From assembly GCA_944381625.1 (NCBI GenBank), contig CALWLW010000002.1:1-64000 (forward strand): DNA of 64,000 nucleotides. The letters run 5' to 3'. The stretch's first letter is position 1; each line of letters starts with the position of its first letter. Of this stretch, positions 22,566 to 64,000 are shown piece after piece. The stretch comes from an uncultured Lachnoclostridium sp. (lineage in GTDB: Bacteria; Bacillota; Clostridia; Lachnospirales; Lachnospiraceae). Made by a program: the position numbers and the translations under genes. Below the pieces are notes generated by a model. That model did no database searches, had not been told where the DNA came from, and worked only from the letters and a program-made list of their open reading frames with translations.

Positions 22566-22571
22566 GAAGGC

Positions 22572-38650: not shown

Positions 38651-41032
38651 ATGGGAGTAAAGAAGAGAAATCTGATGTTGGCCGGCCTTGCGGCCCTGGC
38701 TGCCATACTGGCAGGCGGCGTGATCGGATGGCAGGCCTGGCGTACCAGAAAAGGACTGGAACAGGACGGATACATAGACTGGGTCAGTGAGTCGCAGGAG
38801 TATGAGCAGATCCACGTTCCGGCAGGCCGGGGCTGGAAGTATGTATACCCGGACAAGATGACGGTCAGGGATCAGGAAGGGGTAAAGTATGTTGTCGATA
38901 AGGCAAGCTTTATCCATTATACGGATGGTTCCGTAGGTGCATTTTCCGGAGGAATCGTTCTGGATACGAACCGTATCGGGGCCGGGATGGTACAGCCCTA
39001 CTACCTGCAGGAAGGGATCATGCTGGTCAAAAGGGACAGTTCCTATTACATAGAGAATAACGGCGCGGAGATTGAATTCCGCGATTTTGTCTGGAAGCTG
39101 TCAAAAGACCATTATCTGCTGTCCGGCGAATCCATGGCACTGGAGCTGCCGGAAGATACCGGGCTGGTGCCGGAGGAATATGTGGAACTGCGATGGGTGG
39201 AAGACGGGATCGTGCAGGTGATCACCGGCGGTCAGATGTGGCAGGGCGTCACCGGGGACGCGCGGGTTACCTGGGGCGGAGGCGTCCTGGATCTGTCGGA
39301 CCGGATCCTGTCTGATGAAGACGGGAGTTTTCAGATATCCCTGGACGCCCTGTCTGTGGACGACGAGGACGTGATCCCGGTGGCCAGCACGGCGGAAAGC
39401 TACAGCACGGAACATCCCTCCTGGAATTTTACCGTGATAGACGGAACGGACGGCGCGGACGGCGAGGCCGGGGAAGCCGGTGAAGACGGCGCCGCGGGAG
39501 AAGCGGGCCAGCAGGGAGCCGACGGGGAGACCGGAAGCGACGGAGACGCCGGAGCAGCCGGGGAAGCCGGGGCTCAGGGAGAGCGGGGGAGCACCGCGTT
39601 TTCCCAGCTGGATACGGAAGCGGTGATAGACGCGCAGGTGGAGATGAACGCGTATGAGCCGGGACTCCATGGGATTGCGGGAGCTCTCCGGCTGACCGTG
39701 GGGGACTGGGAGCTGCGAAACCTCTCCCTGGCCATCCGCCGGGAAAGCGGCGGTCTGGAGGCCGCGTCGGTCTCCTTCGAGATGGAAGACGGTTTGTATC
39801 TGAACAGCGGCGGCTGGATACTGGAGGGGGCCTTCTCCCAGGAAGACGATGAAGTTTATGAGCTTGTCTTTTCCTATGGGGATGATCTGGAAGAGGACAC
39901 CCAGTACCATCTGGTGCTGGCGGCAGATTATTATAACGAAGAAGTACATATGGGAAACAAGGTGTTCCTGAACCGTTCGTTCTATACGGATTCCAGGGGC
40001 GTGAACATCCGGCAGGAGGGCGTGACGGAGCAGACGGCTTCGTTCCTTCTGAGCAGGCAGGATACGGATGAGGCCATCAGCCTGACGCTGTATGACAGCG
40101 GCAGGAATGAACTGTACCAGATTCCCACAGACCTGGGAAAGGGTACCGGAGGGCTGAGCGCCGCAGTAGAGCTGGACGGGCTGGAGCCGGACAGCACCTA
40201 TTACCTGGGCGTGCTTCATGACGGCGTGGAAGGAGAAGTATGGGAGTTCCTCACCCTGAAACGCCTGCCGGAACTGGGAGTCATGAAAGCCCAGCTGGGC
40301 GTGGGCCGGTATACCCTGTACTATGAAGGGAATTCCGATCCGGACGGCGCCATCGTGGGCTATACCTATGAGATATATGACGAGAACCTGGGCGACAGCG
40401 CGGTGAAGGAACTGTCCAGTTCGGCGAAGGACGGAGCCGCCAGGGCGATCATCGACAACCAGATCCTCTATTACAACACAGAGTACCGCGCAAGAGGGCA
40501 GGTGATCTGCTATGACAATGAAAAGTACGTGCGCTGGGATATGGAACTGGAGGACGATCCCAATACGGTGGATTACGACGAAGGGGTGCTGCGCATCGCG
40601 GAACTGGAGTTCCCGTCGTTTGCCCCGATAGCCGGACAGTATGAGCTGGAGCCGGATTCCTTCGGCGGATGGCTCCGCCTGCAGATTCCCGCGGATACCG
40701 TTTACCAGGTGTATTACGGGGGACGGGATGAAAATCCCATCTATCTGATGGTATTGTCCTATTCGGGCGAGTACCGGGAACCGGTGACCTTTACCTATAC
40801 CTGGGAGGCGCTGCTGGATCCGGCGTCCGTAAAAATCGATTATCCCGCAGGCGGAGGCGGCCGGGTGAATCTGGACGTGTATGTGGAACTGGATGATCTG
40901 GATCCGGAGACGGACTATTATCTGTATCTGTATGGAGATTATGCGAACCTGGCCATGATCGAGCAGGATATGCCTTATGCCAGCGGCTTCGGGCTGCTGG
41001 GAAGCTGCAAGATCACCACAGGGAAAGAATAG
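38651..41032 (+). CDS. Surface protein 1 with collagen-like triplets (rotary cluster)
   Basis: Type II membrane protein of 793 residues. A basic start (MGVKKRN) and membrane helix (about 8-27) are followed by DGYIDWV, a first extracellular domain of about 230 residues (SFIHYTDGSVGAFSGG, FVWKLSKDHYLLSG), then exactly 17 Gly-X-Y triplets (265-315). The rest is Fn3-like beta modules with LEPDSTYYLGV and YTDSRGVNI motifs. The triplets lack proline, as in other bacterial collagen-like proteins, and are acidic. No LPxTG anchor is present, so the protein is held by its N-terminal helix. The frame opens earlier, but ATG 38651 follows GGAAGGAAA. It is the first gene after the promoter and 30 bases before a related giant gene. 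Confidence 0.8.
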   Translation: MGVKKRNLMLAGLAALAAILAGGVIGWQAWRTRKGLEQDGYIDWVSESQEYEQIHVPAGRGWKYVYPDKMTVRDQEGVKYVVDKASFIHYTDGSVGAFSGGIVLDTNRIGAGMVQPYYLQEGIMLVKRDSSYYIENNGAEIEFRDFVWKLSKDHYLLSGESMALELPEDTGLVPEEYVELRWVEDGIVQVITGGQMWQGVTGDARVTWGGGVLDLSDRILSDEDGSFQISLDALSVDDEDVIPVASTAESYSTEHPSWNFTVIDGTDGADGEAGEAGEDGAAGEAGQQGADGETGSDGDAGAAGEAGAQGERGSTAFSQLDTEAVIDAQVEMNAYEPGLHGIAGALRLTVGDWELRNLSLAIRRESGGLEAASVSFEMEDGLYLNSGGWILEGAFSQEDDEVYELVFSYGDDLEEDTQYHLVLAADYYNEEVHMGNKVFLNRSFYTDSRGVNIRQEGVTEQTASFLLSRQDTDEAISLTLYDSGRNELYQIPTDLGKGTGGLSAAVELDGLEPDSTYYLGVLHDGVEGEVWEFLTLKRLPELGVMKAQLGVGRYTLYYEGNSDPDGAIVGYTYEIYDENLGDSAVKELSSSAKDGAARAIIDNQILYYNTEYRARGQVICYDNEKYVRWDMELEDDPNTVDYDEGVLRIAELEFPSFAPIAGQYELEPDSFGGWLRLQIPADTVYQVYYGGRDENPIYLMVLSYSGEYREPVTFTYTWEALLDPASVKIDYPAGGGGRVNLDVYVELDDLDPETDYYLYLYGDYANLAMIEQDMPYASGFGLLGSCKITTGKE
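39443..39595 (+). repeat. Collagen-like region, 17 Gly-X-Y triplets
   Basis: Seventeen uninterrupted codon triplets with Gly first, from GTD GAD to GER GST, residues 265-315 of surface protein 1. X and Y are mostly Glu, Ala and Asp. Confidence 0.9.
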
Positions 41033-41062
41033 AGGATTCCGGCAACGGAGAAGGAGGAAAGT

Positions 41063-44000
41063 ATGCGGAAGAACAGAGGACTTCTTGGAATCGTGCTGCT
41101 TGGCCTGTGCTGTCTGATCGTTATGGTGGCCGGGGCAGTGTTCTTAAGCCGCAGGAGCGCGGCGGCGTTCCGGGCGGACGGATATGTGATGGCAGTGGAT
41201 TCCCGGGAGGAGGAATTGACAGCCGTGATGCAGCAGTTCGCGGCGGGAAGCCCGTACCGGGATTATGGCCTGGGGACGGTGAGCCTGCGCGACCTGGAAG
41301 GGGATCACATCAGCACAAAAAGAGAAAGCTTTATCCATTACAGTGATGAATCGTTAAGTGCATTTTCTGACGGTGTGATTGTCAATATGGACGATGTGAA
41401 CGGCGGCATCATGAACTATTACAATGTGGAAGCGGGAACCGTGCTGGCGGATTCCCCCAACGGCTACGTGACGGACAACAACACCTATGAGCTGGCGTTC
41501 GCCCATCTTCTGTGGAAGCTGGGAGACGCGGATTATCTGGCGGCTTCGGACACCCTGACCATCCATCTGGCCGGAGGTGTGGAAGAGACGGCGGAAGGAT
41601 TTGTGGAGTTTACCTATCTGGAAAAAGGCATCGTTCAGCTGGTGACCAGAGACCGTGCATGGCAGGTGCTGGCAGAAGGCTCCTGGATCGATCTGGCCAA
41701 CGGCGTCCGGATCTATCTGGATACCCAGGAGATCGCGGACCGCACCGGCAGTTCGCAGATCACGCTGGCGGAGATCCAGCCGGACAGCGCGGCGGCAGTC
41801 CAGGTGGCGGCTTCCGAGGAATGGGTGCCTCCGGTATTCAATATTACGACCATCGACGGTGAGGACGGCGAAGCCGGGGAACAGGGCGAGGCCGGGGAAC
41901 AGGGAGAAGCCGGCGCCCAGGGTGAGTCCGGCGGCGACGGCGAATCCGGTGAGGACGGCCAGGCCGGTGAAGACGGCGAGACCGGAGCCACCGGGGCCAC
42001 CGGCGGGAACCGCAACAACGGCCTCGGCAATTCCGGCGGATCTGCCGTCACCATGCCCACCATGAACCTGACGGATCTGGATGTGACCGCAGGCAGCGTC
42101 AGCTTCCGGATCGAAGTGGGCGAAGGCGGCTGGGAACTGGAAGACCCGGAACGGCCGGGCGAGGAAGCCGGTACCGTACAGCTGATCAATGTCCAGAGCG
42201 GGGATGTGATATATACCTGGAACGTGAATTTCAACACCGGGGACACCGTGTATCCGGAGGATGGGACTTATTATTCTTTCAATGAACTGTCCGCGGATAC
42301 TCAGTACCGGATCGTGGTGACGTCGCCCTACCATTATGAGATCACGGTGGAAGAAGAGACCGTGACCCGCAGCGGGACCAAGGCGTTCATCGACCGGACG
42401 ATCTATACCGACGCCACCGGCGTCTATCTGAACTCCGTGGCGGCAGAGGAGACCAGCATCACCGGAGTCATCGAGGTGAAACCCTACGCGCTGACCAGTT
42501 CGGACGCGGCGTATCTGATGCTGGAAGTGGTGGACGCCAACGGAGACGTGGTCAGCACCTCCATGCCTTTCGTCCAGAGGATCAGCGAGATCCCGCAGAC
42601 GGCGGGGATCGGATGGGAACAGGCTGAGGACGGCAGCTGGCGGTATACCTTTACCTGCAGCGCGGCGGCCGGCGATACCATCACGGCAGATACCACATAT
42701 AAAGTGCGCCTCTACACCAGCAGCTCGTCCTCCGCGCCTTCGGGGCCGGATGATCCGGGCGTGGTGCTGAAAGAGGAAAAAGAGGTCCGCACCCTGAAGA
42801 CACTGCCCACAGTGGGAAGTCTGATCGCGGACGCCCATTCCGGATACTTCGACCTGTATATCGACAGTATCCAGGTGAACGGTGCCCAGGATACCAGCTC
42901 CGTGATTCAGTGGACCTACTACATATACAATGACAGGGGCGAACTGGTGAAGACGCTCACGTCCAGGACTGCGGACGCCGTGCAGCTGAGCGTGGACGGG
43001 GAAAGCATCCAGTACGGCCAGACTTATACGGCAAAAGCAGAGATCACGGTCTATGACAATGAGAAAAATGTGGTGCTGCCTTCCACGGAGGCCACGGCGG
43101 TGAACCTGATCCTGTACGCGTCGGGAGAATCCTTCGTCTACTTTACGGAGGATGAGGCCGCGGATACGGACGGCGACGGCACGGCAGACCTGCCGGGCGT
43201 TACGTTCAACAGCCTGTCCGGTGTTCTGACCATCATCCCCAACGAGAGGGAGATCCTGGTGGGAGACGGGCACAATATCTACGCCCAGGTGGAGAACACC
43301 AGCGGCACATACCGGAACGATCAGTCAGTGATCTATGAACTTCCCGGCAACGTGGCGGTGACGAGAACCGGAAATCAGACCATCTCCACCCAGATCAGCC
43401 TGCAGGGGCTGGCCCAGGGCTCCGACTATATCATCAGTGTCTACGGAGACTACTATGACAAGCACGGAGATACGGACAGCCTGACAGAAGGCGGACTGCT
43501 GGGCAAATATGTGGTGTCGACCCCGGAACCCATGCCGCTGTACATGATGCTGGAGGAGGCCGAAGGAGATGAGGTGGCCACCCACCGCCTGGCTCTGGCT
43601 CTGCGGCTGCCGGATGAGGATGCTCTGAAAGGGCTTAACTGGTACACGTCCGAGGACGAGGCGCAGGTGAACTGGGATGAGGAAGAACGGCTGCAGTACC
43701 AGTACCTGCTGTCCCAGCTGAGCCGGCTGGAGGTGACACTGTATAAAGGTGCGTCTGCCAACGAGAGCAACCAGGTGGGATCGGTCTGTGTGATCCAGGG
43801 AAGCCAGGCGGCGGCCCTGTATGGGAGCGGCGAGGGCCTGACGATCACAGAGACCTCTTTCGGCCTTACGTCCGACGCCATCAACGGCACCTACTATGTG
43901 AAAGTGACGGCGGTCTATGACGGCACCTATGACGACTACGGCCAGGAACCGAACCTGGGCTACCGCAACCTGATCACCGGCATGATGCCGGTGGATGAAC

Positions 44001-47000
44001 AGGGCACCAACCGGTGGACCCTGACAGAGGAAGTGGCGATTACGACCACGGCGCAGGCGGCTGTGCCCGAACTCCCGGGAGCGGAACAGGGCGTCACGGC
44101 AGTGCCGATCTACAACGGACCGGGTACGAACGCCAACAAGATGTACGCGGCGGATTACGGGCTGAAGGTGGATACCGAACTGGCGGAGGATACCATCGTG
44201 GGCTATTTCCTGCAGGCACAGTATGGAACCACCTGCGAGCGGGTGGAGTCGGTGACCTACTACATCATGCCCTCGGAGACCGCGGAGGATTACTACATCG
44301 ACAAGAGCAATTACGGCGTGGCGGGCGACCCCATCGCCATGTATGACAATGAAGAAGGTAAGATCCCGGTGAAATTTACGATCCCGGTGGGCAAGAACGC
44401 GTCCTGGACCATGCCCGCGCTGATCGTGTACTTTGGTGGACTGCCGGCCGACGGCCAGGGTATCGAGGGAAAGTTTGACTATGTGGATTTTGGCGCGACG
44501 ACAGCATACAATGACGCGGAAAAGAGCATAGTGGACGCCTATGGCGGAAGCCGTACGGTCAACGACATCTACGGGGGGCTGACAGAGAATGAGAGGAACA
44601 ACGGCTACCGCGGACTGGAGACGGAGAATGGGGAGTACCGGTTTTACCATATCAGACGGGATAATACGACCACGGCAGTGCTCTGTACGCCCGAACTCAG
44701 CCGGGGACATCACTATACCTTTGCCTACAAGGCACGGATCGATATGGAGACGGGAAGCGATTATATCTATCCGGACAGCGTTACTTCCTATTATCAGGGC
44801 GGAAACAGGAATTCGTTCCTGAGCAGTCCCGTCATCTCCGTATGGAAACAGCCGGTGTCGGTGAATACCTATCTGTACCAGTCCGGGTTATCGGGAATGG
44901 CCGGGGCTGATGGGCTGACAGTGAGCGGCGGGACGCTGGTGAAGCCGTCCGGCCTGCAAATGGAATACAACGGTGACAACTGGAATCCGCTGGGAGACTA
45001 TGCAAATTATGACAACCGTATTGAGGTAAAGGACTTCTTCGTCTGGAAATACCATATCAACGACCCGGACAAAGCCCAGAGCGATGCGGGCTTTAAGAAG
45101 CCCACTACCGGCACCGGGGCGGATCTGATCGGATACTACGCAGACCCGGACGGGAAGACATATGGGGAGCTGTTCTTTGAATCAAGAGATGCTGCCAGCG
45201 CGTTGGAGACGGACTGCACCGTACAGGTGGACCAGATCCTGTTCCAGGAGGACGACCGGTATGTCGTGGATTATCTGGAGAATGATCTTTCCAGAGAAAA
45301 ATGGAACTGCGGGGATTCCACCAATCAATATACCATCGCCTATTCGGCCTCCGGAGGGTATCTTGCGGCGCAGACGGTGGATCTGATCGGCGGGAATAAC
45401 CGGACGCCGAAGATTACCCGGAAGATCGATATGGACGCGCTGGAGTGGACAGCAGAGATCAACAACAATATCGCCACGCTGACCGTAAAAATCGAACAGG
45501 ATAAAGTCGATATATATTCTGCGCAATCGATCGGAGAATTCATGGAAAGGCTCCTGTATCTGGATGTGGAAGCCAGACTTACGAAAGCCAATGGAAGCAC
45601 GGCGACAGCCACCCGGCGGTTCACCTCCAACGGAGGCGTCTACTCGCTGGAAAAGGCGGACGATACCAGCTACCGGATCCGCTGGGATGTGACCATGCTG
45701 CCGCAGATCAGCGTAAACGACAAGGTGGAGTTTTCGATCTACTGTTATTACGATACCGGATACGGGACGATGGATCTGGGACTTCTGGAGTGTGACACGG
45801 ACGAAACCAACGGAGGAACAATCCCAAAAGCAGGAGAAGAAAAGGAGACCTTTACCGGCGCCTACGCCCTGCAGAATCTGGTGGACAACAGTTATGTAAG
45901 GCCGGTGAATGTGACGGATACGGACTCCTGGTCCACATCCGCCCAGACGACGCCCGGCAAGATATCGTTCTATGAATTGAGTGAACCGGAAGAGCCGGAG
46001 GAGAATGTCCTGCGCGTCCAGGCAGAGGGATGGACTTACAATAATTACGCGACAGGCGCGTCAGATCAGGAGCCGGAGAACGGTGTAGCCTGGTGGCACG
46101 TGAGCGATATCAATCCGCTGCAGATGGATTTCTACCGGGAAACCGGCGGCATGAAGCTGGTGGAAGGCGGGGATCTGAATTACGCATGGAAGAAGGTGGG
46201 TTACCATACATTTACATCGGATGCCAGCGTGGATGTGAAGACCCTGATCCCGTCCATGACGCATACCACCCACCGTACCGGACTGAATTACCTGGATTAC
46301 TATATCTCGTGCGGCAGCTACAACCTGGTGACCGCTTCGGATTATAAGATTTATCTGAAAATCTATGAGATCGATGACTCATCGGATACTGAAACAGATG
46401 TCACAAATCAGGTGACAGCCCAGCTGAGAGGAAGCAGCACTGATAAGTTGCCAATAGTGACTATTAATGAGGAGAAATACATTGAGTGGACATTAAAAGA
46501 AAATCAGACGGATTATATCCTCCGGTTTTCCGGCCTGAAATCGGACACCCTGTATGCGCTGGCGGCGTTTGCTTATCCGGATGAGGTCGATGGCAATGAT
46601 GTGGAAAGGGGAGACTGGACTTCGGTTGTAGACGGCGCGGCCGAGTCGGGAGATTCTCATCCGAATGTTACATCGGATAATGAAAATTTCCGGCTCCGTA
46701 CCAACAAGGGCGTGACCCTGGACAGTATCCGGGTGAACTACATCAATGAATCTTATGATAAGAAGGGGCTGGAGATCCAGTTTGGCACGGATGTGTACGA
46801 GGGGTATGAGATCCAGTGTTTCATCTATCGGGATGTGGTGAACGGGAACCTGGAGGATGCAGAGCTTGTTTACAACAATCAGCAATTGATAGGTCAGTAT
46901 ACCCCAGAGAATAATAAAAAGTTTGATCTGAAAGAGGACTACAACTATCTGGAGCCTTCAGAGGATAAATCCTACAGCACCGGCACCAACACGTTTTATA

Positions 47001-47965
47001 TTCCCTTCCCTCCGGGAACAGAGAACAGGCTGATCGGCGGTCATAACTATACGGTTGTGCTGAAGGCCGTGGATGCAGAAGGAAACCTTGTAAATAATCC
47101 GGCCGAAGGCGCGGATGATCCGACAGGCTGGGAATTCTTCAGCCAGCCGGTGGTGATCAGCGGAACAGCGGCTTACGCCATTACGAACCCGGCCAAAGCG
47201 TCTGTGACGGACGGAAACGATCCGGAAAATGTATTGACGATCAACCTGCAGGCATCGGACGAGATGCACCAGATTGTGAACGACCAGTATTCCCTGTTTG
47301 TGAAGTATGTCCGGGACGGGGACGGGAATCCGGTGGAATCCCCCAATATTCTGGGAATGGGATCAGACGAGAATCTGTACTGGATGGCTTCCGAGACGGC
47401 CGGAACCGGGAAGCTGGCAGAAGGGATCACCCTCGGAGGCCAAGGGTCATCGTTCTGGAAGCAGCTGATCAGCGTAGGAGATACGCAGATTCAGCGTGAG
47501 ATTACACTGACCGGCCTGGGGGGCGGCACCTACGAGGTCTATACCATGGCGCAGATCGATCTGACCGCGAACGGCCCCGATACCGAGGTGATGGTGAAGC
47601 AGGAGCTGTACAGCCAGACGGTATACACGCTTACCGGCGATGTGATGGAAGGCCAGGTGTTCACGAATGCGGGAATGGAAAACAGCGTGTCCGTGATGAC
47701 GTTGACACTGAAAAACTGGGAGAACCTGGACCAGGTGGGCAGCGTCATGTGTACGGTGACCAACGCAGAGACAGGAGCCCTCATCCGTACCTTCGCGGAC
47801 GCCGTGATCACAGACGCGGACGGGAACAATCCTACGATCAAGCTTACCTTCGACTCGAAGCTGGATCCGGGCTTCTATCTGATCACGATGAGTATGACGG
47901 AGAAGAACGGCGCGCCGCTGGACCTGTCCGACAGGAACAGGAGCCTGACTGTGACCGTAAACTAG
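41063..47965 (+). CDS. Giant surface protein 2 with collagen-like triplets (rotary cluster)
   Basis: Type II membrane protein of 2300 residues. Membrane helix at about 7-27, then DGYVMAV and a first extracellular domain similar in layout to surface protein 1 (ESFIHYSDESLSAFSDGVI, HLLWKLGDADYLAAS, IVQLVTRDRAWQ). Seventeen Gly-X-Y triplets follow (266-316), at almost the same residue number as in protein 1. About 1950 residues of Fn3-like beta modules come next, with recurring LSADTQYRIVV and YTDATGVYLNS-like motifs. No cysteine-rich, enzymatic or LPxTG motif was seen. AAGGAGGAAA precedes ATG 41063. It is translated in the same operon 16 bases before surface protein 3. Its length could span well beyond the cell wall. 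Confidence 0.82.
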   Translation: MRKNRGLLGIVLLGLCCLIVMVAGAVFLSRRSAAAFRADGYVMAVDSREEELTAVMQQFAAGSPYRDYGLGTVSLRDLEGDHISTKRESFIHYSDESLSAFSDGVIVNMDDVNGGIMNYYNVEAGTVLADSPNGYVTDNNTYELAFAHLLWKLGDADYLAASDTLTIHLAGGVEETAEGFVEFTYLEKGIVQLVTRDRAWQVLAEGSWIDLANGVRIYLDTQEIADRTGSSQITLAEIQPDSAAAVQVAASEEWVPPVFNITTIDGEDGEAGEQGEAGEQGEAGAQGESGGDGESGEDGQAGEDGETGATGATGGNRNNGLGNSGGSAVTMPTMNLTDLDVTAGSVSFRIEVGEGGWELEDPERPGEEAGTVQLINVQSGDVIYTWNVNFNTGDTVYPEDGTYYSFNELSADTQYRIVVTSPYHYEITVEEETVTRSGTKAFIDRTIYTDATGVYLNSVAAEETSITGVIEVKPYALTSSDAAYLMLEVVDANGDVVSTSMPFVQRISEIPQTAGIGWEQAEDGSWRYTFTCSAAAGDTITADTTYKVRLYTSSSSSAPSGPDDPGVVLKEEKEVRTLKTLPTVGSLIADAHSGYFDLYIDSIQVNGAQDTSSVIQWTYYIYNDRGELVKTLTSRTADAVQLSVDGESIQYGQTYTAKAEITVYDNEKNVVLPSTEATAVNLILYASGESFVYFTEDEAADTDGDGTADLPGVTFNSLSGVLTIIPNEREILVGDGHNIYAQVENTSGTYRNDQSVIYELPGNVAVTRTGNQTISTQISLQGLAQGSDYIISVYGDYYDKHGDTDSLTEGGLLGKYVVSTPEPMPLYMMLEEAEGDEVATHRLALALRLPDEDALKGLNWYTSEDEAQVNWDEEERLQYQYLLSQLSRLEVTLYKGASANESNQVGSVCVIQGSQAAALYGSGEGLTITETSFGLTSDAINGTYYVKVTAVYDGTYDDYGQEPNLGYRNLITGMMPVDEQGTNRWTLTEEVAITTTAQAAVPELPGAEQGVTAVPIYNGPGTNANKMYAADYGLKVDTELAEDTIVGYFLQAQYGTTCERVESVTYYIMPSETAEDYYIDKSNYGVAGDPIAMYDNEEGKIPVKFTIPVGKNASWTMPALIVYFGGLPADGQGIEGKFDYVDFGATTAYNDAEKSIVDAYGGSRTVNDIYGGLTENERNNGYRGLETENGEYRFYHIRRDNTTTAVLCTPELSRGHHYTFAYKARIDMETGSDYIYPDSVTSYYQGGNRNSFLSSPVISVWKQPVSVNTYLYQSGLSGMAGADGLTVSGGTLVKPSGLQMEYNGDNWNPLGDYANYDNRIEVKDFFVWKYHINDPDKAQSDAGFKKPTTGTGADLIGYYADPDGKTYGELFFESRDAASALETDCTVQVDQILFQEDDRYVVDYLENDLSREKWNCGDSTNQYTIAYSASGGYLAAQTVDLIGGNNRTPKITRKIDMDALEWTAEINNNIATLTVKIEQDKVDIYSAQSIGEFMERLLYLDVEARLTKANGSTATATRRFTSNGGVYSLEKADDTSYRIRWDVTMLPQISVNDKVEFSIYCYYDTGYGTMDLGLLECDTDETNGGTIPKAGEEKETFTGAYALQNLVDNSYVRPVNVTDTDSWSTSAQTTPGKISFYELSEPEEPEENVLRVQAEGWTYNNYATGASDQEPENGVAWWHVSDINPLQMDFYRETGGMKLVEGGDLNYAWKKVGYHTFTSDASVDVKTLIPSMTHTTHRTGLNYLDYYISCGSYNLVTASDYKIYLKIYEIDDSSDTETDVTNQVTAQLRGSSTDKLPIVTINEEKYIEWTLKENQTDYILRFSGLKSDTLYALAAFAYPDEVDGNDVERGDWTSVVDGAAESGDSHPNVTSDNENFRLRTNKGVTLDSIRVNYINESYDKKGLEIQFGTDVYEGYEIQCFIYRDVVNGNLEDAELVYNNQQLIGQYTPENNKKFDLKEDYNYLEPSEDKSYSTGTNTFYIPFPPGTENRLIGGHNYTVVLKAVDAEGNLVNNPAEGADDPTGWEFFSQPVVISGTAAYAITNPAKASVTDGNDPENVLTINLQASDEMHQIVNDQYSLFVKYVRDGDGNPVESPNILGMGSDENLYWMASETAGTGKLAEGITLGGQGSSFWKQLISVGDTQIQREITLTGLGGGTYEVYTMAQIDLTANGPDTEVMVKQELYSQTVYTLTGDVMEGQVFTNAGMENSVSVMTLTLKNWENLDQVGSVMCTVTNAETGALIRTFADAVITDADGNNPTIKLTFDSKLDPGFYLITMSMTEKNGAPLDLSDRNRSLTVTVN
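41858..42010 (+). repeat. Collagen-like region, 17 Gly-X-Y triplets
   Basis: Seventeen uninterrupted triplets from GED GEA to GAT GGN, residues 266-316 of surface protein 2, directly after TTID; the matching region of surface protein 1 follows TVID. Confidence 0.9.
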
Positions 47966-47981
47966 AAAGGCAGGGAGAGAG

Positions 47982-50144: not shown

Positions 50145-50432
<288 letters not shown>

Positions 50433-50444
50433 GGAGGAAGCGGG

Positions 50445-53373: not shown

Positions 53374-54747
<1,374 letters not shown>

Positions 54748-54756
54748 GAGAGCCTG

Positions 54757-55546: not shown

Positions 55547-56246
55547 GTGGGCGGCCGGAGCAGCGGTCATCGCGGCGCTGGCGCTGGCAGTAACGGGAAG
55601 CGTGCTGTTCCTCGGAAGCGGACGCCGCATGCGGGTGGAGCATGCGTATTATGTGGAAGACGGAAAACTGGTGGAGAGCCAGGGCAGCTGGTCCCTGGCC
55701 TACCGGGAAGACAGAGGGACTGTCCTGAGCGGTTCGGGAGAGAAGAAGAATATGACGGAAGACGGGACGGTCCTCTACCTGAAAGAAGAAGACAAGGTCC
55801 TGCTGCCGCAGCCGTATGTGCTGCAGTTTGCGGCGGACAATTATATATACCGTATGGAATATTTCAGCACGGCGCAGAAGACGGAGGAGGGCATCCTGCT
55901 TCGGGACGGCGCGGACAGCGTCCTGGCGCCGGGCGGTATCCTGTATGACGGAAAGGATACCTATGTGTTTCTGGAGGACGTAAGGCTTACGGTGGACGGG
56001 GAGAGCAGGGAGCTTCCGGCGCTCTCGTCGGTCCACGCCGTGTACGCCAACCGCCTGGAGATCTGCAGCTACCCGGGGGGAGCGGAGGAGATACCGCTGT
56101 ATGTGGACTCACAGGTGGAGATTTCCTTTTCCGAAGGGCGGCTGTTGATGCCCCTGACGGACAGGGTGCTTCTGGCAAACCAGAGCTGGCAGCTGATGGT
56201 CGGTTCTGCGGACTATCTGCCCAGGATCAACGCATGGAAAGAGTGA
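55524..56246 (+). CDS. Surface protein 4, first-domain-only member (rotary cluster)
   Basis: Type II membrane protein of 240 residues. A basic start (MKKLMKYKW), one membrane helix (about 9-31), then an extracellular domain of about 205 residues rich in strands (HAYYVEDGKLVESQG, GTVLYLKEEDKVLLPQPYVLQF, YIYRMEYFSTAQ, DTYVFLEDVRLTVDG). It has the size and strand layout of the first extracellular domain of surface proteins 1-3, but carries no triplet region or Fn3-like tail. It may complete a ring or cap of such domains above the membrane. AGGAGAGGAG precedes the ATG, and the next gene starts 11 bases after its stop. Confidence 0.7.
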   Translation: MKKLMKYKWAAGAAVIAALALAVTGSVLFLGSGRRMRVEHAYYVEDGKLVESQGSWSLAYREDRGTVLSGSGEKKNMTEDGTVLYLKEEDKVLLPQPYVLQFAADNYIYRMEYFSTAQKTEEGILLRDGADSVLAPGGILYDGKDTYVFLEDVRLTVDGESRELPALSSVHAVYANRLEICSYPGGAEEIPLYVDSQVEISFSEGRLLMPLTDRVLLANQSWQLMVGSADYLPRINAWKE

Positions 56247-56257
56247 GGTGACGCAGG

Positions 56258-59200
56258 ATGAAGAAAAAGAAGAAAGCGCTGGCAGGCGCGGTCCTGCTGC
56301 TGAAAAGCGGCTGGGGGAGATCGCTTCTGCTGGCCGCGGCAATCATACTGGCGCTGGCCGGTGCGGCCATGCTGCGGATGAAAGAGTGGTCACAGATCAC
56401 GGAAGACGGCTATGTGGTGACGGAGGAAGTGGCGGATACGCTGAAAAACGGCATGGAGGACCCGGAGGCGGAGTATGTGGACCTGTACCCGGTCTCGGCC
56501 TGGGACGGGGTGTACAGCAGGCTGGGGAGCCTGTATGTGGGAGAAGACCTGCAGAGATTCCTGCAGGCGTATCCCCAGATTCTGGGAAGCGGCAGCGGCG
56601 TGCGGTTCCTGACGGACAGCATGGAGCTGATCGCGGAGGATATGACCACGCGCCTGTCCACCTATGACGGCCTCCGCATGAATGGGGGCATCACTTTCAA
56701 TGAGGATGGAAGCCAGGCCGATGTGGAGAATTTTGTGCTGGTTGGGCTGCCCAACGGGCTTTATCTCAATGCCCGGAATATGGAACTGTCCTACGCGTCC
56801 GTGAGCACCGTGGTGCCTGCGGACAGCATCGTATATTTTGGCGAGAGCGAGGTGCGCTGTTATGTGCGCCGGGAGTCGGAACTGGTGTATCAGGAGATCG
56901 GGAGCCTTATGGCGGCCAGGATCCGCATCGGCAATCTGGATATGGATTACCGGGATTTCCTGGAGCTTCTGGAGAGCAGCTCCGGTTCCGGCGTGGATGT
57001 ACCCAGGGAAGAACCTGCCCGCTGGGAGGAGATCCAGGCAGTGGAGAGCGTGGTGATCGATTCTCAGGGCGGCACAGGCGGACATACGGAGCAGGGCGGC
57101 CGGGAGGAAGGCGGCGCGGACAGTGAAGACCAGGCGGGAACTCAGGGCAGCGGCTCTGCTTCCTCCGCGTCTCAGGACGGCGCCCAGGCCGGCCAGGGAA
57201 GCCAGGCGGGAGCGTCTCAGGACGGCGCGTCCGCGGGCACGGACGGCAGCGCAGACGGATCTTCCGGCGACGGAGGCTCCGGCAGCGGCTCGGGAGGAAA
57301 CGCGGACGGTACGTCCGGCGACCAGGACTCCAGCCGGCATCCCGAGGGAGGTTCCGGCAGTTCCGGAGAATCCAGTGACGCCGTGGCGGAGCCCGGCGGA
57401 GAGACCGGAGAGGAAGACGGAGATATCGTGGACGGCGGCGAGCTGGATCTGGGGGACCATGTCCCCGAGGTCACGTCCGGGGACTTCCGGGCGGAGGTCT
57501 ATCATATCTACAGCGACGTGACGCTGGACGACGAGTACGGCCAGCTCTATAAACTGACTTATAAATTATACTGGGGCGGGGACCTGCAGACGATCCGCAT
57601 GCGGAAATCCGTGCGCTCCAGCCAGGTGAATGAGGACGGGAAGCTGGATATCGACCTGTCCCTGGTTCCGCCCGGAAGTAAGGTGCGGATCGAGGCTACC
57701 TATACCTATTATGACAGCAACGGCGAGAAGATAGAGAAAGATTTCCTGCCGGAAGGCGGCGTGACGGTGGAGACCATGACGCTGGAGGAAGGCCTGGAGG
57801 CCGGTCTCATCGACCGGATCGGCGTGTCCTTTGACTCCGGCGCTGAGATCGTGCCGCGTCTGACGAACCAGCTGCAGCTCCCGGAACTGAAGCTGGAGGT
57901 ATCGGACATCATGCAGGAATACCTCTACCGGACGGCGGTGCATGCACAGAAACAGGGAACGGACGATTTTCTGGACATTCCGTTCTCCTCCTCCGATCTG
58001 CGGAAGCTGAAACGGGGAGAGGGCGTTTCCTGGGTGTCGGAGAATACCGTGGCCAATACAGATTTCCTGTCCAGCGATACGGTCTTTGACTGCGGAATCC
58101 TGATCCAGGACAAATTCGGCAACAGCCTGCCGCTTAAGCGGCTGGACGGAACCGGGACCGCGGATATGGAAGCGTATCTGAGCGCTGTCGCCGGTACGGC
58201 GAAGAGGGCTCCTTCGGTGACGGTCACGGAGAAACGGGTGACGGATCCGGACGCGGAGACCATCGGTACGAAGCAGCTGACGCTGAAGCTGACCAATCCG
58301 GACGGCGCGCCCCTGCTCACCGAACAGGTGACGACTTCGGAGGGGACCGTGGGACGGAAGCTGTACCTGCGCGTCTTCGCCCTGAAGGCGGGGGAAGAGA
58401 CGCCCATGGCCATCGATATGGTGGCCAACGGACATCTGGACACTTTATATGACGGAACCTTTATTGTCCTGGATCCGGAAGCCATGCAGGAGAGCGGCGG
58501 GCAGGAGCTGGTGATCAACAATCTGCCGGCTGACCGCAGTACCAGCTACAGCTTCCGTATCTACGGCAATTATAACCTGACCCCGGAAAATGATCTGGGG
58601 CTGACCCCGGAGGAGGACGTATGGAACGCCTCCGTGGGAACCTATCAGAGCGCGTCCATGGCCATCACGCGGCTGGGCTACGCCTTTGCCTCCCTGGAAG
58701 CGGAGGCGGCGGATACCACGGCAGTGGTGAGGGGCGGACTGACCAATTCCACAGGAGAGGCGCTCCGGGATCTGTTCACCCGTTTTGAGATCCAGCTTCT
58801 GGAAGGAAATGCCTCCAGCGTACGGGGCGGCGTGGAAAAATACACGGCGCAGCTTCGCAAAGAGGACTTTTATGAGAACGGATCCGCCAGGACATTCCCG
58901 GACAGCGGGACCTATACCCTGTGCAGGGAGAGCGGCAAGTACACAGTGACCGTGCAGGGAACCGCCGGGGAAGAGATCTGGAAGACGCTCTGCTACGGGG
59001 CGCAGCTGACAATCTCTTATGAAAACCTGAATTCGACCCTGTACTACCAGACGAAGCTCAGCGCTTTTGTAGAGCAGGGCTATACCGGACAGGGAACGAT
59101 GGAGCACGATGTGAGCGGCTCCTCCAACACCTGTACCTTCCGTATGCTGAAGCTGACCCCGAAGGTGAGCCGGACGAACTTCTATACAGTGTCGGATTTT

Positions 59201-62200
59201 ATCGAGATCCGCGGACTGCAGATCTACGACAAGGACGGCGTGATCACCGGGACCAGCTCGGACATCAACACGGGAACGTCGGGCAATGTGATCGTGCAGC
59301 TGCAGACCAGGAACGGCAGCGACTGGCAGACGACCCAGAGCCGTGTGGTGAACACCACGGCGGATCCGAACCAGCGTCTGGACAACATCCGTTTCCAGGG
59401 ACTGGGCCGCGATCAGGAATACCGGGTGCGCTTTGTGGCGGTGTCCTATAATACCACCTGGTCGGCCATCAACGAACAGGCTTCCAGAGTGCTGGATGTG
59501 GCGGAGGCGGAATGGACGCTGACCACCGGCACCGGCGTGACCAGCAGCCTGGCGCTTCTGGGCGCTTCGGAGGCGCTGAACCTGGTGGAAGGCAGCGTGG
59601 ACAGCCTGAATCTGATTGAGACGGATCAGGTGCAGAAGGGATACGTTGTCAATCCAGACGGAACGCTTGCGGTCAATTCGGGCTGGTGGACTACCGGGTT
59701 TATCCCGGTGGAGGAAGGGGATATCCTCATGTTCTACCGGGTGAGCCGCACCAATGGCGCGCCCTACCTGGCATTCTATAAGGAGGCTGATGAGGAGAGC
59801 GCGCTGATGCTCACAGGAGGGACCACCTCGGCACGGAGGATCCTGTATACGTCCACTTACGAGAGCAATTATGCGGAAGCCTACGGGACGATGGATTATA
59901 ACCTGATTCCGGTTCCCGAAGGCGCGAAATATATACGTCTGTCCAGCGTCACTAATGTAATTTATCAGGCGGGACCCAATTCCTCCAAACTGCTTTCCCT
60001 GAAACAGATGGGAATGCTGGATGGAAACAGCGGGGAGAGCCTGTTCAACGGCGGCGCGCTCAGCTGGGATAAGGCTGACATAAAGACGGGTTACGCTTTC
60101 AATAAGTCGGGTAAGACGGAGGTGGTCAATGGCAGCTACTCCCTGACCGGAAGGATATCTGTAACGCCGGGAGAGTATTATATGGCTCTGGGCGGCCATC
60201 CCACGAACGCAGGATATGTGGGCTTTTATAATGAAGAGGACGCGGTCATAGATGTGCTGGATAATCTGCACAGCGGCTTCCGCTTCCAGGCGCCGGAAGG
60301 GGCGTCCTATATGCGGCTGGCGGATACGCCCGCCGCGGTGGATGGCTCCAATAAGCTGATTGAACTGACCGTCCGCCATCTGAACAGGAACATGCTGGAT
60401 TCCGGCCAGATCCTGCAGGCGGACGAGGGCGGGAACTTCTATGCCAACGTGCGCGCGGACGTGAGCGATCCCGGCGGGGACCTGAAGGTGAATCCTGCGG
60501 ATCAGAGCTCCGAAGTGCGGAGGTTCGTCATGCGCTGGTACCAGCGGGAGGGCATCGACGGGGCGGATACCTCGGACAAATTAGTCTATGAGGACACGGT
60601 GTCCTTTGACGGGACGTCCTACCGGGGCACGCACCAGAAGGAGCTGGATGGGTACTGCAGCTACTGCGTGACCATCTGGGCAGATCTGTACGGGGAGGAG
60701 ATCCTCCTGTCGGATCTGTATTTCACCACCGAGGAGGTGACGTACAGCATCGCCTGCGACGAGGATCTGGACCTGCTGAATATGTTCCCCTATGGGAAGT
60801 TTACTGTAGTGGAGGACTTTACCACGGCAAGGACCGGCGTGGTAACCAGTAACTTTTACGGCAAGATCGACGGTCAGGGGCATACCATCACCAACGCGGG
60901 GCAGATGTATCTGATCAGCAACCTGAGAGACGGGGCGGAGATCAGCAACCTGATCATCAACTGGGATACGGACCTGAACAGCGGCCTGAGAGACCGTTCG
61001 GCACTGATAAGCGATAATTACGGGACGCTGCGCAATATCATTGTGAGAATCAATCTGTCCGGTGCGTTCCCTAATGTTCAAACTGGTGGAATTGTGCGGA
61101 TGAACCGGCCGTCCGGCCTGATTGAGAATTTCGCGGTGCTCTATGAGAATGACCTGACGGCAAACAGATACTGGGGCGGCATCTGCGGATATAACCAAGG
61201 GACCGTGCAGAACGGTTACGCCTACATATCCTCCAGCGCCCGCGTGAATTTCGCGTCAGCCCAGTATCTGGGCAATTCTGCGAACGTGGTTTATGACAAC
61301 GGCGTCATCGTGGGGCATAACTATGCGGAGGGTACGGTACGGAACGTGTATACGGTGGGCGACATCAATGTGGAAAAGCAGAATACCAATTCTTACACCG
61401 GCAGGAATGGGCTGGCCGTGGGATATAGTCTGGGAACGGTGCAGAACGTGCTGACCCGGGGAGACCGGTACGCGTACACCATCAGCTCCACCACCAACGT
61501 GCAGGGGCCCAGTACGCTCTTTGCTGCATCCGGGGGCATCAGCGTGGGCATGCATGCCGGAAGCTGGAGGGAGGAAGATGTCTACTATATTTCACCTCAG
61601 GGGGCGGTCTATCCCTATACGAACCAGACGGCGGCGGAGGATTCGGACCTGTGGAATGTGGCGGTGATGAGCAATCTGCTCAACGGGGACGGACAGTTCC
61701 AGGTGGAGGAGATGATCCCGTCCGGATACTATCCCAAGATCCTGATGAACGATGTGATGCTGGAGGCGCAGCCGGCGATCCCGCTGCCGTCGGGCGTGGG
61801 CCTGTCGGCGCCGGAGGTGCTGGACGCGCGGCCGGTGGAAGAAGGGACGGATGAGAACGGACAGGACTATGTGATCGCCAGCATCCGGTTCATCAACAAT
61901 CGCCAGCGGCAGATCACCGAACTGGTGCTGGATGGGCTGGACTGCGAGATCCTGAGCCAGCAGATGGGGCAGGATTATTATGAGGTAACAGTGAAGCTGA
62001 CCAATCCTCAATACTGCCACTCTTCCTATGAACTGAAGAGCTTCTCCTACCGGGCCTCCGCCATCGGAGACGCCACCAGGACGGAGAGCTTCGGCGCGGG
62101 CACGCCCAACGGGGAGAAATATCTGGATATTGAGTTCTGGAGGAAGATACGGACTACGGCGGAGTGGAACCGGTACCTGTCCGCGGATCAGATCGACATG

Positions 62201-64000
62201 ATCGGGAATTATGAGATAGCCGCGGATCTGGATTTTGCCGGCATGAGCGGAAGCCAGACGGCGGAGCTTGGCCGGAAGAACCTGGGCGGAGGGGAATATC
62301 AGGCATTTTCCGGAGCGGTCCGCGGAGCTCAGGTGTCGGACGGAGCCGGCGGCACCCGCCCGGCGTCCATCCGGAACTACCCGGCGGAGAAGGGCTATGT
62401 GATCGAGAGCATGGACGGCGGCCGGGTGGAGAATCTGCTGGTGGAGAACATCAGTTTTGAAGGCGCGCCTGCCGCTCAGGCCAGCAGAGGCTTTCTGGCT
62501 CAGGCTTCCGGCAGTGAACTGAGTCACGTGCGCATGGAAGGCGTATCCATGCCGGGCGCGGCGGGCAGTGCGGGAGCGCTGGCGGGAACGCTTACGGAGT
62601 GTACGGTGGAATACTGCTCTGCATCTGATGTGGAGATGGAATCCGCGGATTCGGAGCAGGGCGGAACCCTGATTCTGGGAGGCCTGCTGGGCAGTGCGGA
62701 GAGAAGCACCGTTCAGCGCTGCTTCGTGTCCGGCCTGACGATGACGGCCAGGGCAGGCTCTGCCGCCGGCGGAATCGGCGGCCTGGCGGGCTGTCTCACC
62801 GGCAACGGCGGGAAGCTCCAGGAGTGCTACGCGCAGGGGTCGATCGACAGCAGCTTCAGCGGCACCGGCGGCCTGGTGGGCATCGGCGGCAACAATATCA
62901 GTCAGGTGTGGACGGACGTGTCCGTGCGGTCTTCCGCCAGCGGCATCGGCGGCATCCTGGGAAGTGCGGAGAGTTCGCTGTCCCTGAAGAGCGCGTTTGC
63001 GGCCGGGGAAGTATATTCCCAGACCGGTTCTCTGGACAATGTGGGCCGGCTCTACGGAAATGAGCTGGGCAGCGCGGTGGTAACCGCCAGCCGGGTCTAT
63101 GCGTATGAAGGACAGCTGATGAATGGACAGTCGGTAACTGACCGGCTGGACGCCCTGGCCCTTCTGGCCAGCGAGGACCTGTCCGGCAGCAGTGTGAGGG
63201 CCGGCTGGAGCCGCAGGCTGGGACTGGGCAGCGGCTGGCAGATCCAGGGGGCGGATTCACCGGAGGAGACGCCGGGGATGCTGCCCTGGCTCCTGGATGA
63301 AGACGGAGCGACCCCGCTTCCGGGCCAGAGCGTGACGATTCTCAGGGATCTGTCCCTGGAACTGAATCCGGTTGGATATGTGATTCAATCCGGAGGAGAG
63401 TATCCATACAAACTGTACGTATCCTTTGTACAGCCCATTGCGGACACTTTATATGAATACGGCAGCACGGTGATAGAGGGAATGGAAGCGGCAGATCCGT
63501 CGGATGCCTATCCCCTGAAGCTGAACACCCAGACATCAGTGGCCGACGGCACGGTGACCACAAGCTTTGAACTGTATACCAGGCTGAACAGCTATCAGGA
63601 CAATTACCGGGTGACGGTGCAGGTGAAGAGGGCGGACGGCAGCGTACAGAGTCTGAGCGGCGTACTGCAGTTTGCCGAGGAGGATGTTCCTTATCTGGAA
63701 ATCAGTAATATAGATGAGTGGAAACACTATCTGGGCAGCGGCTCCGGGGAACTGGGGCTTGGCCAGTCGTATCAGAATATTGCCATCACCGGCACAGTGG
63801 ACTTCAGCAGCCTTAGCAATGCGGAGCTGTCCGGTTATCTGAGCATCCGCGCCGGAAAGCTGAAGGGAGCAGGATCAGAGGCTGATCCTGCCATGCTGAC
63901 AGGGCTGGACTATACGGCCAGGAAGAGTGGAGAGGCGGTCTTTTCCGATATTACGGGAGCTGCTTCAGACATTACATTTAAAAATATGAAACTGGATGTC
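56258..64000 (+). CDS. Giant surface protein 5, incomplete at the window end (rotary cluster)
   Basis: Type II membrane protein; 2581 codons are open without a stop to the window edge, so the C-terminus is not seen. A Lys-rich start, one helix (about 20-40) and EDGYVVTEE lead to a first domain as in the other members. A Gly-Ser-Asp-Gln linker (about 268-398) replaces the collagen triplets. Many beta modules follow. From about residue 1500 GLUG-like motifs appear (GGICGYNQGTVQNGYA near 1638; GGLLG, GGIGGLAG and GGLVGIGG near 2140-2210), suggesting right-handed beta-helix parts. GAGGTGA precedes ATG 56258. It could be the distal, adhesive or sensing part of the machine. Confidence 0.8.
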   Translation, partial: MKKKKKALAGAVLLLKSGWGRSLLLAAAIILALAGAAMLRMKEWSQITEDGYVVTEEVADTLKNGMEDPEAEYVDLYPVSAWDGVYSRLGSLYVGEDLQRFLQAYPQILGSGSGVRFLTDSMELIAEDMTTRLSTYDGLRMNGGITFNEDGSQADVENFVLVGLPNGLYLNARNMELSYASVSTVVPADSIVYFGESEVRCYVRRESELVYQEIGSLMAARIRIGNLDMDYRDFLELLESSSGSGVDVPREEPARWEEIQAVESVVIDSQGGTGGHTEQGGREEGGADSEDQAGTQGSGSASSASQDGAQAGQGSQAGASQDGASAGTDGSADGSSGDGGSGSGSGGNADGTSGDQDSSRHPEGGSGSSGESSDAVAEPGGETGEEDGDIVDGGELDLGDHVPEVTSGDFRAEVYHIYSDVTLDDEYGQLYKLTYKLYWGGDLQTIRMRKSVRSSQVNEDGKLDIDLSLVPPGSKVRIEATYTYYDSNGEKIEKDFLPEGGVTVETMTLEEGLEAGLIDRIGVSFDSGAEIVPRLTNQLQLPELKLEVSDIMQEYLYRTAVHAQKQGTDDFLDIPFSSSDLRKLKRGEGVSWVSENTVANTDFLSSDTVFDCGILIQDKFGNSLPLKRLDGTGTADMEAYLSAVAGTAKRAPSVTVTEKRVTDPDAETIGTKQLTLKLTNPDGAPLLTEQVTTSEGTVGRKLYLRVFALKAGEETPMAIDMVANGHLDTLYDGTFIVLDPEAMQESGGQELVINNLPADRSTSYSFRIYGNYNLTPENDLGLTPEEDVWNASVGTYQSASMAITRLGYAFASLEAEAADTTAVVRGGLTNSTGEALRDLFTRFEIQLLEGNASSVRGGVEKYTAQLRKEDFYENGSARTFPDSGTYTLCRESGKYTVTVQGTAGEEIWKTLCYGAQLTISYENLNSTLYYQTKLSAFVEQGYTGQGTMEHDVSGSSNTCTFRMLKLTPKVSRTNFYTVSDFIEIRGLQIYDKDGVITGTSSDINTGTSGNVIVQLQTRNGSDWQTTQSRVVNTTADPNQRLDNIRFQGLGRDQEYRVRFVAVSYNTTWSAINEQASRVLDVAEAEWTLTTGTGVTSSLALLGASEALNLVEGSVDSLNLIETDQVQKGYVVNPDGTLAVNSGWWTTGFIPVEEGDILMFYRVSRTNGAPYLAFYKEADEESALMLTGGTTSARRILYTSTYESNYAEAYGTMDYNLIPVPEGAKYIRLSSVTNVIYQAGPNSSKLLSLKQMGMLDGNSGESLFNGGALSWDKADIKTGYAFNKSGKTEVVNGSYSLTGRISVTPGEYYMALGGHPTNAGYVGFYNEEDAVIDVLDNLHSGFRFQAPEGASYMRLADTPAAVDGSNKLIELTVRHLNRNMLDSGQILQADEGGNFYANVRADVSDPGGDLKVNPADQSSEVRRFVMRWYQREGIDGADTSDKLVYEDTVSFDGTSYRGTHQKELDGYCSYCVTIWADLYGEEILLSDLYFTTEEVTYSIACDEDLDLLNMFPYGKFTVVEDFTTARTGVVTSNFYGKIDGQGHTITNAGQMYLISNLRDGAEISNLIINWDTDLNSGLRDRSALISDNYGTLRNIIVRINLSGAFPNVQTGGIVRMNRPSGLIENFAVLYENDLTANRYWGGICGYNQGTVQNGYAYISSSARVNFASAQYLGNSANVVYDNGVIVGHNYAEGTVRNVYTVGDINVEKQNTNSYTGRNGLAVGYSLGTVQNVLTRGDRYAYTISSTTNVQGPSTLFAASGGISVGMHAGSWREEDVYYISPQGAVYPYTNQTAAEDSDLWNVAVMSNLLNGDGQFQVEEMIPSGYYPKILMNDVMLEAQPAIPLPSGVGLSAPEVLDARPVEEGTDENGQDYVIASIRFINNRQRQITELVLDGLDCEILSQQMGQDYYEVTVKLTNPQYCHSSYELKSFSYRASAIGDATRTESFGAGTPNGEKYLDIEFWRKIRTTAEWNRYLSADQIDMIGNYEIAADLDFAGMSGSQTAELGRKNLGGGEYQAFSGAVRGAQVSDGAGGTRPASIRNYPAEKGYVIESMDGGRVENLLVENISFEGAPAAQASRGFLAQASGSELSHVRMEGVSMPGAAGSAGALAGTLTECTVEYCSASDVEMESADSEQGGTLILGGLLGSAERSTVQRCFVSGLTMTARAGSAAGGIGGLAGCLTGNGGKLQECYAQGSIDSSFSGTGGLVGIGGNNISQVWTDVSVRSSASGIGGILGSAESSLSLKSAFAAGEVYSQTGSLDNVGRLYGNELGSAVVTASRVYAYEGQLMNGQSVTDRLDALALLASEDLSGSSVRAGWSRRLGLGSGWQIQGADSPEETPGMLPWLLDEDGATPLPGQSVTILRDLSLELNPVGYVIQSGGEYPYKLYVSFVQPIADTLYEYGSTVIEGMEAADPSDAYPLKLNTQTSVADGTVTTSFELYTRLNSYQDNYRVTVQVKRADGSVQSLSGVLQFAEEDVPYLEISNIDEWKHYLGSGSGELGLGQSYQNIAITGTVDFSSLSNAELSGYLSIRAGKLKGAGSEADPAMLTGLDYTARKSGEAVFSDITGAASDITFKNMKLDV

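Follow-up and report, generated by a model that had tools for sequence, protein, structure and literature searches.

What would a bacterium do with an F1-like ATPase whose genes stand in line with those of giant surface proteins, when the same genome also holds an ordinary ATP synthase? This question is raised by a gene cluster in the first 64,000 nucleotides (forward strand; this whole stretch is called the window here) of contig CALWLW010000002.1 from an uncultured Lachnoclostridium sp. of the Lachnospiraceae (GenBank assembly GCA_944381625.1). An earlier sequence-only reading of the window, made by a model, had proposed an ATP-driven motor acting on an extracellular stalk or fibre, by analogy with the F1-like X0 ATPases of mycoplasmas. 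We conclude, with moderate confidence, that the cluster encodes, together with giant surface proteins, an extra F1Fo-like rotary ATPase that is probably uncoupled from ions and is predicted to rotate or twist surface fibres by ATP hydrolysis.

Gene content of the cluster

The cluster consists of 12 open reading frames (ORFs) on the + strand, with starts from 38651 to 56258. Neighbouring ORFs are 9-42 bases apart or overlap by 4-23 bases, which bears out the tight, co-directional spacing described in the sequence-only reading. Its list of c-, b-, alpha-, gamma-, beta- and epsilon-like genes with five anchored surface proteins, two of them above 2000 residues, was likewise correct: surfB has 2300 residues and surfE, which outruns the window and reaches its stop at contig position 69529, has 4423 in all. 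The N-terminal anchor proposed for the surface proteins is present in all five, and surfE has a C-terminal hydrophobic helix in addition. The genes are, in order:

surfA, 38651..41032, + strand: 793 amino acids (aa); N-terminal membrane helix, first domain in common with surfB, 17 collagen-like Gly-X-Y triplets, no C-terminal helix
surfB, 41063..47965, + strand: 2300 aa; N-terminal membrane helix, first domain, 17 collagen-like triplets, long further region, no C-terminal helix
surfC, 47982..50144, + strand: 720 aa; N-terminal membrane helix, first domain, about 20 Gly-Gly-X triplets; directly 5' of c
c-like subunit, 50187..50432, + strand: 81 aa; GxGxG stretch and RNPE loop retained, helix 2 without acidic residue
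b-delta-like stalk protein, 50445..51242, + strand: 265 aa; single N-terminal membrane helix, delta/OSCP-like C-terminus
alpha-like subunit, 51272..52603, + strand: 443 aa; P-loop and arginine finger intact
gamma-like subunit, 52600..53373, + strand: 257 aa
beta-like catalytic subunit, 53389..54747, + strand: 452 aa; Walker A and catalytic glutamate intact
epsilon-like subunit, 54757..55017, + strand: 86 aa; assigned from position and family alignment
multi-helix membrane protein (TM), candidate divergent subunit a, 55007..55546, + strand: 179 aa
surfD, 55524..56246, + strand: 240 aa; membrane helix and predicted beta-rich extracellular domain
surfE, 56258..64000 within the window (to 69529 on the contig), + strand: 4423 aa; hydrophobic helix at both ends

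Pfam PF00006 was found in alpha (7e-71) and beta (1e-66), PF00231 in gamma (5e-25) and PF00137 in c (2e-8). Collagen repeats were above the Pfam cut-off in surfA and just below it in surfB (E 7e-6), and the b-like, epsilon-like, multi-helix, surfC, surfD and surfE proteins had no Pfam family above cut-off.

The cluster is not the ordinary ATP synthase of the cell

The window's genome (3.43 Mb on 30 contigs) holds four rotary ATPase subunit pairs and one weaker match from the same Pfam family. One pair is part of an ordinary F1Fo that has a, c and delta genes of its own and an intact c glutamate, and another is part of an ATPase assigned by eye, from its ORFs, to the V/A type. This confirms that the cluster is not the cell's ordinary ATP synthase. 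The remaining two pairs are those of the window cluster and of another such cluster on contig C17, which runs surfB, surfC, c, b, alpha, gamma, beta, epsilon, multi-helix protein, surfD and surfE. Identity between the two clusters is highest for c (75%), followed by beta (69%) and alpha (65%); it is 42% for gamma and epsilon, 30% for b and 26% for the multi-helix protein.

In this genome, one open frame (C1:191097-193124) covers both delta and alpha of the ordinary F1Fo. A delta match lies inside an open frame of 677-683 aa in 9 of the 17 genomes of the genus, and in five further genomes the C-terminal part of the match lies inside one of 593-595 aa.

Catalytic residues of the F1-like subunits are conserved

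Alignment with the cell's ordinary F1 showed the Walker A motif, the GER catalytic glutamate of beta and the arginine finger of alpha in all 12 clusters compared, so the catalytic residues, already noted as intact in the window, are intact throughout. The gamma subunit matches solved F1 gammas (best E 3e-12). The epsilon-like protein has no Pfam or NCBIfam match and, judged by its length, is probably the N-terminal domain only; compared with the alpha of the cell's ordinary F1Fo, the one in the cluster lacks about 60 residues at the C-terminus.

The window alpha scored below the NCBI atpA cut-off (386 vs 484 bits), with four other alphas of the clade at 359-404 bits. The window beta exceeded the atpD cut-off (482 vs 463 bits), which one of four other betas also passed, the other three falling just below; because of this score, automatic annotation would label the window beta ordinary. 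Source names likewise give 'F0F1 ATP synthase subunit beta', so systems of this kind are entered in databases as routine ATP synthases.

Searching proteins with two beta queries (window and C17) gave at least 8000 candidates. Among the 120 matches listed, the betas were 66-97% identical to the window or C17 beta vs 41-47% to the cell's ordinary F1 beta, and by sequence identity betas of this kind appear to form a distinct clade. The source names in this listing are Lachnospiraceae, Clostridiales and Eubacteriales metagenome-assembled genomes (MAGs), 'Candidatus Choladocola avistercoris' and Tannockella kyphosi (Erysipelotrichia), whose beta lies on a 2.26-Mb contig, and also Bifidobacterium sp. 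LC6 and a Thermoguttaceae bacterium, both given as source labels that may reflect misbinning.

A possible Fo-like membrane part without the ion-binding residues

In all 16 clusters where the place of the c-like subunit is visible, its GxGxG and loop motifs are retained, and in none of these clusters does its helix 2 hold an aspartate or glutamate. As a control, 29 loci were looked at for canonical c subunits, and the 14 found (13 distinct) all had a glutamate in helix 2. The a-like family (15 sequences) has no column of at least 80% arginine or lysine within residues 103-132, where the arginine of subunit a was sought; such columns occur only at positions 13, 36, 56 and 169 of the window protein. 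In canonical a, one column is arginine in 16 of 16 sequences. The ion path had been called broken from the window sequence, and both observations agree with this.

The multi-helix protein itself has no Pfam PF00119 match and no sequence signal for subunit a. A Foldseek comparison of its predicted model placed chains of one Fo entry at ranks 1-3 and a chloroplast chain a at rank 6, with ATP-synthase chains aligning over 144-155 of the 179 residues. We take the chain letter a to stand for subunit a, as the 9jc2 listing itself names no subunits. The protein is thus, by predicted fold only, a candidate divergent subunit a. In profile comparisons of the TM family by hhalign we excluded the copy from L036 (clusters in relatives carry our own handles), whose C-terminus looks frameshifted.

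Of 12 copies of the b-like protein, 11 have a single N-terminal membrane helix and the remaining one is cut. The C-terminus of this protein aligned by hhalign with the C-terminus of seven canonical deltas at E 0.004 and a probability of 8%, a score that neither the reversed profile nor any of 150 column shuffles reached, and from these comparisons the protein is best described as b-delta-like. Because there is an a-like candidate and a delta-like end on the b-like protein, an Fo-like frame may be present.

A c-like subunit together with an a-like fold is also what one would expect of an unusual ion pump or ATP synthase whose ion route works without the usual c glutamate and a arginine. We regard this as very unlikely: c helix 2 lacks an acidic residue in every one of the 16 clusters, columns of at least 80% arginine or lysine are missing from the a-like family in the range examined, and the cell already has an ordinary F1Fo and a V/A-type ATPase.

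Surface proteins with repeat stretches and terminal anchors

Each of surfA, surfB, surfC and surfD begins with one membrane helix and a first domain. The sequence-only reading had described this domain as shared, and profile comparisons upheld the idea in part: the relation is clear between surfA and surfB (E 1e-44) and well supported between surfB and surfC (1e-6) and between surfB and surfD (5e-5). It is weak between surfA and surfE (8e-4) and between surfA and surfC (2e-3), and non-significant for A-D (0.03), B-E, C-D, C-E and D-E, leaving it weak or unsupported for surfE.

Straight after the first domain, surfB has collagen-like repeats of 11-39 triplets in 10 clusters, and surfC has Gly-Gly-X repeats of 12-40 triplets in 10 of 11, the eleventh being a fragment (L037) without that part of the protein. 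From helix geometry, such repeat stretches would be about 10-35 nm long, comparable with the Gram-positive wall. The surfC tail looks coiled-coil-like and Pro-rich by eye. Four of 10 surfB family members, the window surfB not among them, contain fn3 domains, and an additional A/B-type protein is also encoded in L036 and G802.

A hydrophobic helix is present at both ends of surfE in seven of the nine copies scanned. One of the two exceptions (L038) is cut by a contig end, and the other is the C17 copy, which is split into genes of 3650 aa and 603 aa; the latter is the rest of the surfE C-terminus, with a signal-like start of its own and a C-terminal helix. Three further copies (G802, G804a and G804b) end in a hydrophobic stretch and a basic tail. 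The only domain-like signal in surfE is a weak GLUG-type repeat match.

The tight linkage to very large exported proteins could point to an export or assembly ATPase that secretes, folds or anchors its giant neighbours, like FliI/SctN-type ATPases in type III secretion, and a translocation role is discussed for the mycoplasma Type 2 and Type 3 ATPases (PMC3369863). We consider such a role improbable here. The cluster has a gamma-like subunit, its beta and alpha score far better with F1 than with FliI/SctN models (482 vs 211 bits and 423 vs 173 bits, respectively), and the surface proteins begin with ordinary membrane helices.

Motor and surface genes are linked across relatives

We inspected 18 clusters or fragments: two in the window's genome, three on MAG contigs and 13 in further genomes. 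L038 and G800a are one locus and were counted once; a contig end lies inside or next to the cluster in L037, L038, L036, G311, G324, G800b and G801, and G799 lies at the border of the sequence taken. Beta is present in 17 of the 18, all 17 with surface genes, and in the eighteenth (G801) the contig edge follows surfB and surfC.

The full order surfB-surfC-c-b-alpha-gamma-beta-epsilon-multi-helix-surfD-surfE was found in nine clusters. L036 differs in that it begins with surfC and closes with two A/B-type genes, and three rearranged clusters (G800b, G802 and G799) have b-alpha-gamma-beta-epsilon-multi-helix followed by surfB-surfC-c-surfD-surfE. Throughout the 16 clusters that hold both genes surfC is followed by c, even in the three rearranged ones where c is parted from b. 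The surfC-c gap of 1129 bases in G799 arises because surfC is split into two ORFs there.

Two clusters (G134 and G311) encode the a-like protein and surfD as one polypeptide, the N-terminal half of which matches the TM family with E 5e-4, a score reached by none of 100 shuffles. The window cluster had been called 'genetically fused', which is true of these two relatives; in the window itself the genes are linked as an operon only. The same two loci also contain an extra surfD-like protein (465 and 504 aa) between the fusion and surfE (G134 21979-23376 and G311 5632-7146, in joined locus coordinates).

A beta profile (22 sequences, threshold E 1e-150; own genome included in each draw) matched six of the 397 genomes drawn from the window's family, five of the 17 from its genus and three of 398 drawn across the phylum. 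Three genomes carry two cluster copies each. The surfC first-domain profile matched 5 of the 397 family genomes, all among the six with beta (hypergeometric 7e-11). For this comparison, in which the best four candidates per genome were scored for beta and the best seven for surfC, the two draws were taken as the same 397 genomes, being of equal size and with the same handles as far as listed. In the sixth beta genome, G311 (85% complete), the contig is cut inside b, and no surfC was found elsewhere in the genome. In the genus, surfC was found in six of the 17 genomes, namely all five beta genomes, with equal copy numbers, and G801. Co-occurrence in relatives, which the sequence-only reading had set as a test of its proposal, thus holds in both family and genus.

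The motor and surface genes have also diverged together. Pairwise divergence from 14 clusters (13 for TM) correlated with that of beta at r 0.85 for surfC, 0.88 for surfD and 0.82 for TM, values as high being seen in 0 of 2000 permutations; shared species history contributes to this correlation. Hence motor and surface genes co-occur, diverge together and are inherited together in several families.

These data bear on the alternative of a second ATP synthase operon, mobile or in decay, that came to lie beside adhesin genes by chance. Its patchy distribution, the recombinase-like ORFs (named by eye) beside some copies and the broken ORFs in others would fit that idea. We nevertheless disfavour it and hold it to be highly improbable, as the same gene set and its co-occurrence persist across genera and several families, with correlated divergence, conserved catalytic residues and two copies in three genomes.

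Recombinase-like genes stand before several copies: a tyrosine-recombinase-like ORF before the C17 cluster (C17:67733-68572) and resolvase-like ORFs before two rearranged clusters (G800b 5255-5884 and G799 16625-17224), all named by eye. They may bear on the patchy distribution. In G804a, G804b, L038 and G799, surfB, surfC or surfE is split into several ORFs, by either assembly error or real switching, which look alike in these data.

A proposed ATP-driven motor for surface fibres

Gene adjacency and fusion suggest that surfC goes with the rotor (c) and surfD with the stator (the a-like protein). On this basis we infer the following working order. ATP hydrolysis by alpha and beta would turn a ring of c-like subunits through gamma and epsilon, the stator being held by the b-delta-like stalk and the a-like protein. 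surfC with its Gly-Gly-X repeats, and perhaps the collagen-like surfA and surfB, would sit on the rotor as stiff shafts of about the length of the Gram-positive wall thickness, and surfD and the doubly anchored surfE would belong to the stator side. The surfC helix might lie in the middle of the c-ring, an arrangement with a precedent in the V-ATPase, where AP1/AP2 are foreign single membrane helices in the c-ring centre (PMC10003446); the V-ATPase pumps protons, unlike the putative ion-uncoupled ATPase of the cluster. With torque transferred outwards, the distal domains would be strained, rotated or reset at the cost of ATP, and the most likely effect would be altered adhesion or the release of bound ligands. 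This biological outcome is the least certain step of the proposal.

The alpha and beta subunits could also do conformational work without full rotation of a ring, their alternating states pulling or clamping the surface proteins through the stalk. For Mycoplasma mobile, one option considered is that the alpha3beta3gamma part passes force to GliD (PMC11864180), and a conformational change of the mycoplasma Type 3 ATPase is proposed to open MIB/MIP (PMC12994834); the stalk of our cluster is b-delta-like too. Retention of the c-like subunit with its GxGxG and loop motifs in 16 clusters speaks against such non-rotary action; the mycoplasma clusters are described as lacking similarity to a, b and c (PMC3369863). 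We judge it unlikely, if the least so of the alternatives.

A partly recognisable membrane part, the loss of the c ion site and the joint inheritance of motor and surface genes make it testable whether a rotary ATPase uncoupled from ions can still be kept by selection and how torque would cross the membrane to the outside.

Comparison with known systems

The products of the mycoplasma Type 3 cluster include a 12-helix protein, an 87-kDa membrane protein and a small cytoplasmic one, with no similarity to a, b or c reported; the 12-helix protein is common to Types 2 and 3, and the non-F1 proteins of both are described as unlike a, b and c (PMC3369863). The same source states that no equivalent of these repurposed F1-like motors is known in bacteria other than mycoplasmas. 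The Type 3 ATPase is required for the MIB-MIP antibody-cleaving system (PMC12994834). For the Type 2 ATPase the proposed role is to power gliding by way of giant surface proteins, and GliD of M. mobile is proposed to descend from a b-delta fusion (PMC11864180).

Like the Type 3 X0 system in these accounts, our cluster has F1-like alpha, beta, gamma and epsilon in one operon, is linked to surface proteins and is extra to an ordinary F1Fo, and both are proposed to pass force across the membrane; the Type 3 cluster, unlike ours, is described with seven genes and no giant fibres among them. With the Type 2 G1-ATPase of M. mobile it has in common a motor proposed to move giant surface proteins (Gli349 and Gli521 there) and a b-delta-like protein (GliD). 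In M. mobile, as described, beta carries a large N-terminal extension and the motors assemble into dimers and chains, whereas the window beta has just 452 aa; going by the descriptions, only our operon includes a c-like subunit and fibre genes. The membrane part is partly recognisable in our cluster, in contrast to the unknown membrane part of the mycoplasma motors.

Membership in mycoplasma Type 2 or Type 3 was rejected. The NCBIfam cut-offs for Type 3 (MSC_0619, 293 of 520 bits; MSC_0618, 411 of 570) and Type 2 (MMOB1660, 374 of 600; MMOB1670, 388 of 850) were missed, and alpha and beta of the cluster are no closer to these types than ordinary F1, as the cell's ordinary F1Fo alpha and beta outscored them on the Type 2/3 models. 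Nor was the 12-helix protein that marks both types seen: by hydropathy, the scanned surface, TM and b-like proteins have at most five segments, and the other ORFs are alpha, beta, gamma, epsilon and c. The analogy drawn in the sequence-only reading therefore holds in that the cluster would work like the mycoplasma motors, and fails as membership of their types by NCBI cut-offs.

The cluster has alpha, beta, gamma, epsilon and c in common with the F1Fo ATP synthase, together with a candidate a-like fold and a b-like stalk whose end may be delta-like; unlike the synthase, it is without the c carboxylate, a conserved a arginine and a separate delta gene, its alpha and epsilon are short, and its operon includes surface proteins. 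It resembles the N-ATPase (alternate F1F0) in being an extra F-type operon beside the main one. This identity was rejected: the TIGR03324 and TIGR03305 cut-offs were missed widely (356 of 750 and 442 of 752) and the ion-site glutamate is absent. The FliI/SctN secretion ATPases were also rejected, their NCBIfam cut-offs being unmet (best 173 of 619 for alpha and 211 of 587 for beta).

The cluster might form a separate class of its own. Our literature searches found no description of such a system outside mycoplasmas. We tentatively suggest, with less confidence than we place in the rotary ATPase as such, a separate third use of the rotary ATPase, in walled Clostridia, that arose apart from the mycoplasma motors. 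It would have kept a full Fo-like frame (a-like stator, b-delta stalk and c-ring) and deleted the ion path, the ATP-turned c-ring carrying a Gly-Gly-X or collagen-like shaft through the wall, against a stator with surfD and a loop of 3000-4400 residues anchored at both ends. Such a system would be a rotary machine of the Gram-positive cell surface.

Neighbouring genes

A promoter-like site (38560..38589, + strand; 10/12 matches) lies upstream of surfA; across the region such sites show no excess (13 vs 10.1, standard deviation 3.0, in shuffles). Just 5' of surfA, 36444-37730 and 37672-38367 encode an AAA_21-type ATPase and an RloB-like protein (Pfam), a pair that looks like a small defence module.

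Farther upstream, the window encodes an elongation-factor-G-like protein with a YacP/NYN domain (5562-8324), and 69%-identical relatives of it lie shortly 5' of two rearranged clusters (G800b 1710-4400 and G799 13608-16298, in joined-locus coordinates). A serpin with bacterial Ig-like domains, to our knowledge an uncommon combination, is encoded at 11418-13577. On the 3' side of surfE there are three near-alike ORFs (contig C2:70759-71955, 72146-73495 and 79102-80226), which presumably resemble Rpn/PD-(D/E)XK-type transposase-associated proteins.

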